A stretch of DNA of 64,000 bases, taken from the NCBI RefSeq assembly GCF_001676785.2, contig NZ_CP015910.2:868001-932000 (forward strand), written 5' to 3'. Source of the DNA: Brachyspira hyodysenteriae ATCC 27164 (GTDB taxonomy: Bacteria > Spirochaetota > Brachyspiria > Brachyspirales > Brachyspiraceae). Position numbers and translations under genes: made by a program. Shown piece after piece: positions 14,012 to 15,547 of this stretch (position 1 is its first letter; every line of letters begins with the position of its first letter). A model generated the notes under the pieces. That model had not been told where the DNA came from and did no database searches. It saw nothing but the letters and a program-made list of their open reading frames with translations.

Positions 14012-15382
14012 TTATTTGGATTTACTGAGATATTTATTTTCTGTATCATCAGCAAGTTTATATATTTTTTCTTCATCTATAGTAATAATTTTTCCTTTTT
14101 CCACAACAACTTTTCCATTAACAACAGTATAATCAACAGTATTTTTCCAGCCTATAGTGCCGAATAAAGATTTAGGATCGAAATTAGCACCTACCATTTC
14201 TAATTTTCTCATATCTATCATGAATAAGTCTCCTGCTTTTCCAACTTCCAAACTTCCTATATCATCTCTGCCTAAAACTTTTGCACCTCCATTTGTTGCA
14301 ATTTTCAATATATCGTAGGCACTAGGAGCTTTATCGCTGGAATTGAGTCTATGAAGTAAATAGCATACTCTCATCTCTTCAAGTAGACTAGAACCGTCAT
14401 TGCTTGCACTTCCATCAACTGCCAAACCTACAGGCACTCCTAATTCAAGCATTTCAGGTATTCTGCAAACTCCTGAACTTAATTTCATGTTTGATATAGG
14501 ACAATGAGCTACACCTGTTTTTGTATCAGCCAAATATTTTAACTCTTTTTCATTAAAATGTATTCCATGAGCATACCATACATCTTCACCAACCCAGCCA
14601 AGAGATTCCATATATTCCAAAGGACGCATATTGAATTTTTCTCTTACAAAAACTTCTTCATCTTTAGTTTCGCATAAATGTGTATGAAGCCTTACTTTCA
14701 AATCTCTAGCCAAAACAGCTGACTGCTTTAATAATTCTCCTGTAACATTGAAAGGAGCACAAGGAGCTAATGCCACCATGTTCATAGAATATTTTGATGG
14801 ATCATGATATTTTTCAACTACTCTCTGACAGTCTTTTAGAATATCATCTATTGACTGAACCACAGAATCAGGAGGAAGTCCTCCGTCTTTTTTACTCAAA
14901 TCCATACTTCCTCTTGAAGCATACATTCTTATTCCCAAATCTTTAGCAGCAGCAAATTGAGAATCCAATATTCCTTCTGCATTGTTATTAGGAAATAAAT
15001 AATGATGATCAAAACATGTTGTGCAGCCTGTTTTTAGTAATTCGCCCATCGCTGTCATAGAACTATAATACACAACATCGTTATTTAAATTTTTCCATAT
15101 TTCGTATAGATTAGTAAGCCATTCAAATAATTCCATATTCTGAACCTGCGGAAGATTTCTAGTGAATATTTGAAATAAATGATGATGAGTATTTATAAGT
15201 CCCGGATATACAAAACAGCCTTCAGCGTCAATTACTTTATCTGCATTTTTTTCTTCTTTTGTTTCTTTACCTATATAAGTTATAACTCCGTTTTCTATAA
15301 ATAAATTACTAGAGCTATGAACCGTATCATTATTATCGCATGTAACTATAGAAGAAGCATTTTTGATAAATAGACTAGACAT
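14012..15382 (-). CDS. Amidohydrolase, probable 8-oxoguanine deaminase
   Basis: 456 residues, the size of the cytosine-deaminase-like amidohydrolases. Metal and active-site motifs: NTHHHLF (about 64-70), THLCET, YAHGIHF, AHCPISNMKL and VDGSASNDGS. The HHH-containing first motif and GCTTCFDHHY match 8-oxoguanine deaminases, which convert 8-oxoguanine to urate; chlorohydrolases and guanine deaminases are close relatives. A purine riboswitch lies directly upstream, which supports a purine substrate. A GGAGGT ribosome site precedes the ATG. Confidence 0.7.
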   Translation of the reverse strand: MSSLFIKNASSIVTCDNNDTVHSSSNLFIENGVITYIGKETKEEKNADKVIDAEGCFVYPGLINTHHHLFQIFTRNLPQVQNMELFEWLTNLYEIWKNLNNDVVYYSSMTAMGELLKTGCTTCFDHHYLFPNNNAEGILDSQFAAAKDLGIRMYASRGSMDLSKKDGGLPPDSVVQSIDDILKDCQRVVEKYHDPSKYSMNMVALAPCAPFNVTGELLKQSAVLARDLKVRLHTHLCETKDEEVFVREKFNMRPLEYMESLGWVGEDVWYAHGIHFNEKELKYLADTKTGVAHCPISNMKLSSGVCRIPEMLELGVPVGLAVDGSASNDGSSLLEEMRVCYLLHRLNSSDKAPSAYDILKIATNGGAKVLGRDDIGSLEVGKAGDLFMIDMRKLEMVGANFDPKSLFGTIGWKNTVDYTVVNGKVVVEKGKIITIDEEKIYKLADDTENKYLSKSK

Positions 15383-15416
15383 ATATTGATACCTCCGTTA
15401 ATTAAAATAAGGCACA

Positions 15417-15486
15417 AAAACTTATAGTCAATTATTGAGGTAATTGGTAGAAACGTTCAGCCATATTATGAACTTATATAAGCTGT
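15417..15486 (-). promoter_or_regulatory. Purine riboswitch, guanine type
   Basis: Read on the minus strand, the leader contains the conserved core of the purine riboswitch: TATAA, ATAATATGG, GTTTCTACC and TTGACTAT in the right order and spacing. P1 is AGCTTA/TAAGTT (15484-15479 with 15424-15419), P2 GTTCA/TGAAC, P3 CAATTA/TAATTG. GG in loop 2 can pair with CC in loop 3. The specificity base in GACTA is C (adenine switches have T). Loop 3 reads CCTCAA instead of the usual CCGTAAA. ACCTC there is complementary to the GGAGGT ribosome site 40 bases downstream, so control could be translational. Confidence 0.85.
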
Positions 15487-15547
15487 ATAGTTATTGCCTA
15501 ATTGCATTATAAAATATTTTATTTTTATGTCAATTCATAATTAATTT

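Follow-up and report, generated by a model that had tools for sequence, protein, structure and literature searches.

The window analysed here, a 64,000-nucleotide stretch of a Brachyspira hyodysenteriae ATCC 27164 contig, carries on its minus strand a deaminase gene of the PRK08203 8-oxoguanine deaminase family, preceded by a purine riboswitch and a promoter (Table 1). The deaminase exceeds the curated cut-off of NCBIfam model NF006055, which bears out the original prediction, made from the sequence alone, that a probable 8-oxoguanine deaminase is the target. A perfect sigma-70 promoter (TTGACA-16-TATAAT, 15533-15506) lies 5' of the aptamer and, judging from its spacing, transcription would begin at about position 15499. 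The riboswitch itself is real: it matches Rfam model RF00167 over the full model length (1-102) at 15501-15405 of the minus strand, with P1, P2 and P3 all present and a score of 59.2 bits (gathering threshold 37, E 1.1e-07). It is the only purine riboswitch above cut-off in the 3.07-Mb genome, where a search for a second one returned only sub-threshold matches (E 1.35 and 4.67). The aptamer match ends 22 nt 5' of the deaminase start, and the end of P1 is separated from the start codon by 38 nt that include the Shine-Dalgarno (SD) sequence GGAGG.

Table 1. Features of the deaminase gene and its riboswitch leader, in window positions, ordered along the transcript
Feature	Position	Strand	Basis
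-35 box TTGACA	15528..15533	-	12/12 consensus together with the -10 box, spacer 16; kept in 17/17 Brachyspira leaders
-10 box TATAAT	15506..15511	-	consensus match
P0 5' strand AGGC, inferred transcript 5' end	15496..15499	-	in all main-type leaders; missing with its partner in L014/L019
P1 5' strand CUUAUA	15477..15482	-	Rfam alignment
P2 5' strand GUUCA	15469..15473	-	Rfam alignment
Loop 2 UAAUAUGGC, its GG kissing loop 3	15460..15468	-	Rfam alignment
P2 3' strand UGAAC	15455..15459	-	Rfam alignment
J2-3 GUUUCUAC, guanine-I pocket (U47, U48, U51 equivalents)	15447..15454	-	RF00167 alignment; comparison with Paenibacillaceae GCUCUAC
P3 5' strand CAAUUA	15441..15446	-	RF00167 alignment
OFF-hairpin helix A, 5' strand UACCUC (P3 end and loop 3)	15437..15442	-	folds, leader comparison
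Loop 3 CCUCAA	15435..15440	-	RF00167 alignment; leader comparison
P3 3' strand UAAUUG, re-pairs with leader in OFF hairpin	15429..15434	-	RF00167 alignment; folds
J3-1 AC, C74 equivalent at 15427	15427..15428	-	RF00167 alignment
P1 3' strand UAUAAG; its AUAAG re-pairs with CUUAU in OFF hairpin	15421..15426	-	RF00167 alignment; folds
P0 3' strand GCCU, overlaps helix C (P0 and helix C mutually exclusive)	15410..15413	-	leader comparison; folds
OFF-hairpin helix C, 3' strand CUUAU (copies part of P1 5' strand)	15407..15411	-	folds
OFF-hairpin helix B, 3' strand UUAAUUA, partner UAAUUGA 15434-15428	15399..15405	-	folds
Shine-Dalgarno GGAGG, 9 nt 5' of AUG	15392..15396	-	sequence
OFF-hairpin helix A, 3' strand GAGGUA, overlaps SD	15390..15395	-	folds, leader comparison
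Deaminase, 456 aa, PRK08203 8-oxoguanine deaminase family	14012..15382	-	NCBIfam NF006055 590.9 bits, cut-off 532; 48% identical to PDB 3hpa

The aptamer recurs in 16 of 26 Brachyspira genomes, as 17 copies that each lie at a deaminase start, a recurrence that places its link to the deaminase beyond chance. A deaminase above cut-off is present in 17 of these genomes. One genome (G021) has an intact deaminase and promoter and no riboswitch, an apparent loss, and in another (G011) the riboswitch and first codons (L013) lie on one contig while the remainder of the deaminase lies on a second, fused to other sequence, indicating an interrupted gene.

All pocket positions of the window aptamer are of the guanine-I type. 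In the Rfam alignment J2-3 reads GUUUCUAC, the specificity C lies in GACUA, the equivalents of C74, U22, U47 and U51 are present, and J2-3 and J3-1 have no insertions (roles of U22, U51 and C74 in the pocket are described in PMC9295807). The original prediction had called the aptamer guanine-type from the C in GACTA and the U51-type position, and both the RF00167 match and the pocket letters agree. Xanthine-II and guanine-II riboswitches are marked by J2-3 insertions, accompanied in xanthine-II by J3-1 insertions and U51G; the window aptamer has no J2-3 insertion and keeps U51. Guanine is the expected ligand from these pocket letters, as the window also does not carry the J2-3 signature GCUCUAC of the 8-oxoguanine class. 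Guanine would fit the enzyme as well, since the same deaminase family acts on guanine as well as 8-oxoguanine (PMC6186785) and since no other guanine deaminase scored above a curated cut-off in the 26 Brachyspira genomes. Outside the window, at 996549-1011230 of the same genome, large subunits of molybdenum-cofactor dehydrogenases, two in all, lie on either side of an SsnA-like aminohydrolase in a possible purine-catabolism cluster.

The identity of the target raises the alternative that the window riboswitch senses 8-oxoguanine despite its guanine-type pocket. The 8-oxoguanine riboswitches described so far occur, to our knowledge, only in Paenibacillaceae, are always found 5' of this deaminase family and are ON switches; this shared target, together with the NCBIfam equivalog call of the deaminase, would favour 8-oxoguanine. 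So would the reports that guanine is a poor substrate of AtzB-cluster enzymes and that the Pseudomonas enzyme has 8-oxoguanine as its native substrate (PMC13054789). We rebuilt the 8-oxoguanine signature from Paenibacillaceae genomes, taking deaminase loci from 28 of 346 and scanning them with our own covariance model. The signature, GCUCUAC in J2-3 (a one-base deletion plus a U to C change), occupies the place of the window's GUUUCUAC in all eight Paenibacillaceae deaminase leaders. These leaders evidently represent the published 8-oxoguanine class. That class is mentioned in PMC9295807 and PMC9971707. The absence of the signature from the window, together with the activity of the family on guanine and the want of another guanine deaminase in the genus, leads us to regard 8-oxoguanine as an unlikely ligand here.

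Loop 3 of the window aptamer, CCUCAA, departs from the Rfam consensus CCGUAAA, as had been noted in the original prediction, and CCUC is found in loop 3 of none of the 30 aptamers listed from outside Brachyspira. The segment UACCUC is exactly complementary to GAGGUA, which overlaps the SD. That loop 3 would complement the SD (ACCTC with GAGGT) had also been anticipated; the complementarity is indeed exact, but the U and A of UACCUC sit in the 5' strand of P3. By itself a 6-nt match between loop 3 and the SD is weak evidence, as loop 3 needs CC and the SD needs GG.

In order to place this match in a structural context, we folded each transcript from its inferred start to codon 10, using nearest-neighbour calculations without kissing loops, ligand, Mg2+ or co-transcriptional folding. 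In 14 of the 15 main-type Brachyspira leaders the free minimum-free-energy (MFE) fold is a single three-helix hairpin, here termed the OFF hairpin, composed of UACCUC/GAGGUA (helix A), UAAUUGA/UUAAUUA (helix B, in which the P3 3' strand is extended by one base) and AUAAG/CUUAU (helix C, formed by the P1 3' strand). This hairpin excludes P1 and P3 of the aptamer. Helix A lowers its calculated energy from -3.8 to -11.5 kcal/mol, so that in these models the predicted ACCTC pairing is energetically central to the OFF state and provides most of its energy, consistent with the translational control originally proposed. Two further elements of that proposal are not supported. A separate expression platform does exist 5' of the AUG, where the stretch after P1 contains three segments complementary to the P1 3' strand, the P3 3' strand and loop 3. 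The predicted pairing of loop 3 with the SD lies at one extremity of an extended stem whose formation breaks up P3 and P1, and does not represent a contact made by the intact aptamer. A switch in which loop 3 of the intact aptamer pairs with the SD until loop 2-loop 3 docking releases it, with no further platform, would draw on the exact match of UACCUC and GAGGUA in 13 of the 17 leaders and on the use of the loop 3 CC for kissing and SD pairing alike. We nevertheless consider it very unlikely, as helix A requires the end of P3 to open and is worth -4.2 kcal/mol alone, compared with -11.5 kcal/mol with helices B and C, both of which retain their leader strand in every, or almost every, main-type leader.

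Compared with shuffled leaders, the hairpin gave z scores of -2.8 to -3.3 (p 0.005-0.013) in six of eight main-type leaders tested (L001, L011, L015 and L016-L018) and weaker values in L010 (z -2.2) and L013 (z -1.6). When the SD was kept and the spacer alone was shuffled, the signal was weaker (p 0.007-0.07). The spacer thus provides modest evidence per sequence, and the case for the OFF hairpin rests on its recurrence in diverged leaders. In L010 and L013 the pairing of loop 3 with the SD is kept with other letters (AAUUACCU/GGGUGAUU); L010, with loop 3 CCUAAA and SD GGGGUGAUU, still has 8 paired positions. In L015, which has a different spacer, helix B still forms 7 pairs as UAAUUGA/UCAAUUG, with G-U and G-C exchanges, and in L016 it reads UAAUUGA/UUAGUUA. 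Because the aptamer constrains the hairpin's 5' strands, strict double-sided covariation is absent. The RNA covariance model used an RNAalifold consensus structure. Pair counting on a MAFFT alignment (A3) was dropped in favour of per-sequence folds, with L015 lying in a different register near the SD. The global fold of L013, the leader of the interrupted gene, is not the OFF hairpin. Two leaders, L014 and L019, have loop 3 CCAAAAAA, no match between loop 3 and the SD, and no OFF hairpin. Their SD is predicted to lie in a local hairpin (UUUUUAU.../...AUAAAAA), which is perhaps the other platform that these leaders would need.

From the aptamer, the promoter, the target gene family, the conservation, the complementarities and the calculated folds we infer the ligand, the direction of the switch and its effect in vivo. 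With a probability of about 0.72, the guanine-family riboswitch turns translation of a guanine/8-oxoguanine deaminase ON, with the OFF hairpin masking the SD and guanine as ligand. In the ligand-free RNA, the aptamer's 3' half (the end of P3 with loop 3, the P3 3' strand and the P1 3' strand) would pair with the leader to form three stacked helices in one hairpin, with loop 3 covering the SD. Ligand would stabilise P1, P3 and the contact between loops 2 and 3, and the outer helix P0, in which the 5' AGGC pairs with GCCU and which overlaps helix C, would help the aptamer state. Because aptamer and hairpin are mutually exclusive, aptamer formation would remove the hairpin and free the SD, and the predicted outcome of ligand binding is therefore translation ON. 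The unusual loop 3 would then be explained, as part of the kissing loop would double as an anti-Shine-Dalgarno strand.

It is in the calculated folds that the SD is hidden in the ligand-free state by a structure exclusive with the aptamer. Where the gene is intact, the ligand-free ensemble of main-type leaders is calculated to be more stable, by 2.7 to 7.6 kcal/mol, than the aptamer state without kissing; the corresponding gap in L013, the leader of the broken gene, stands apart at 13.7 kcal/mol. Guanine-I aptamers bind with nanomolar affinity, which could in principle invert a gap of 2.7-7.6 kcal/mol. For the window, the cost of opening the SD falls from 6.4 kcal/mol in the ligand-free state to 4.9 kcal/mol in the aptamer state, in which the SD is still calculated as partly paired. 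This gain in accessibility is modest because the SD is also able to pair with GCCUU or with early codons.

In a different switch, GCCUU would mask the SD unless the 5' AGGC captures it on formation of P1. AGGC (GGGC in L010 and L013) and GCCU occur together in 15 leaders and are both missing from the other two (L014 and L019), and the pairing AUGCCUU/GGAGGUAU is predicted in constrained folds of L005 and L012. However, most main-type leaders do not pair GCCUU with the SD in their free MFE fold, and helix B and loop 3 would be left unexplained. P0 is thus quite unlikely to be the real switch, and it may act alongside the OFF hairpin.

The exchange of strands that we propose for the OFF hairpin has parallels in other bacteria. 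Read from their sequences, three clostridial leaders (L092, L191 and L182) and the Paenibacillaceae leaders pair the same aptamer segments (the P1 3' strand, J3-1 and, in several, also the P3 3' strand) with the 3' side of a hairpin that is followed by a U run. Termination would occur there without ligand, and these riboswitches would thus also switch genes of the same enzyme family ON. In Brachyspira the strand swap appears to be retained, with SD masking in place of the terminator. The clear terminators of these relatives, and the shared strand swap, raise the alternative that the window hairpin AUAAG/CUUAU, followed by UUUU, attenuates transcription. We give this alternative hardly any credence, as the window stem has 5 pairs with one G-C, a terminator scan found no terminator-like site in the window leader, and the U run is interrupted in L015.

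In a tree of the deaminases, the Brachyspira enzymes and those of L092, L191 and L182 form one clade (support 100/97), and the riboswitch-bearing Paenibacillaceae enzymes fall in a separate clade (100/99). This topology suggests that gene and switch were inherited or transferred together. The riboswitch was rejected as a general feature of this deaminase, as it lies directly upstream only in L092 among 79 public-genome loci.

With regard to known systems, the aptamer belongs to a known family. It shares with the guanine-I riboswitches of the xpt type (RF00167) the three-stem junction, the pocket letters of J1-2, J2-3 and J3-1, and the GG/CC kissing loops, and differs from them in its 6-nt loop 3, its translational platform, its deaminase target and its predicted ON direction. 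The Paenibacillaceae 8-oxoguanine riboswitches have the same target family and the same logic of re-pairing the 3' half of the aptamer downstream to give an ON switch, whereas they combine GCUCUAC with a terminator and the window combines GUUUCUAC with SD masking. We know of no role of loop 3 as an anti-SD in the add adenine riboswitch of Vibrio vulnificus, whose logic the window switch resembles. As a purine aptamer that sequesters the SD without ligand, add is a precedent for translational ON control (PMC8342710), but its pocket is adenine-specific and the sequences of its masking helix are different. A full-text search for Brachyspira and riboswitch returned five papers, none of which deals with purines judging from title or abstract. 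As far as we found, what is new is that Brachyspira uses the riboswitch for this deaminase, that loop 3 would serve as an anti-SD in a strand-swap hairpin, and that a sister copy has an 8-oxoguanine-type pocket. If our reading is correct, it adds a guanine riboswitch that turns translation ON and uses a portion of its kissing loop as the anti-Shine-Dalgarno strand. It would also connect guanine- and 8-oxoguanine-pocket sensors that serve a single enzyme family, the strand swap following one logic across three bacterial groups.

The sister copy lies in genome G013, where L019 (aptamer at 1501-1598 of that locus, plus strand) is located 1.6 kb upstream of L015, each 5' of its own deaminase. J2-3 of L019 reads GCUCUACC, the Paenibacillaceae signature, which no other Brachyspira copy has; L014, from another species and otherwise near-identical in its aptamer, has GUUUCUACC. 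The L019 enzyme is placed inside the Brachyspira clade. It also lacks all residues characteristic of the Paenibacillaceae enzymes, and enzyme differences were on this ground rejected as an explanation of the L019 pocket. These two observations make the pocket change look independent, and the L019 pocket, seen in one genome, apparently arose separately from that of Paenibacillaceae. We tentatively suggest, at a little under even odds, that Brachyspira holds guanine- and 8-oxoguanine-sensing versions of one riboswitch before tandem, closely similar deaminases, the 8-oxoguanine pocket having arisen independently by the same J2-3 change. An 8-oxoguanine pocket would then exist beyond the one family from which it has been reported, and the tandem copies of a single Brachyspira species would offer a ready natural experiment on riboswitch ligand change.

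Purine riboswitches were also seen near other amidohydrolase genes. In another spirochaete family they lie directly 5' of a distant amidohydrolase (22-25% identity; L036:1501-1599 and L037:1501-1598), and in L036 a CCAUCG/CGAUGG hairpin reaching the SD could form. In Evansella, one lies 5' of a second amidohydrolase that is about 30% identical to the window deaminase (L072:1468-1567). Two divergent purine riboswitches stand back to back, about 70 nt apart, at L034:1501-1767, and an ssnA RNA motif (RF03031; L044:4509-4556) lies about 150 nt 3' of a clostridial gene belonging to this deaminase family.
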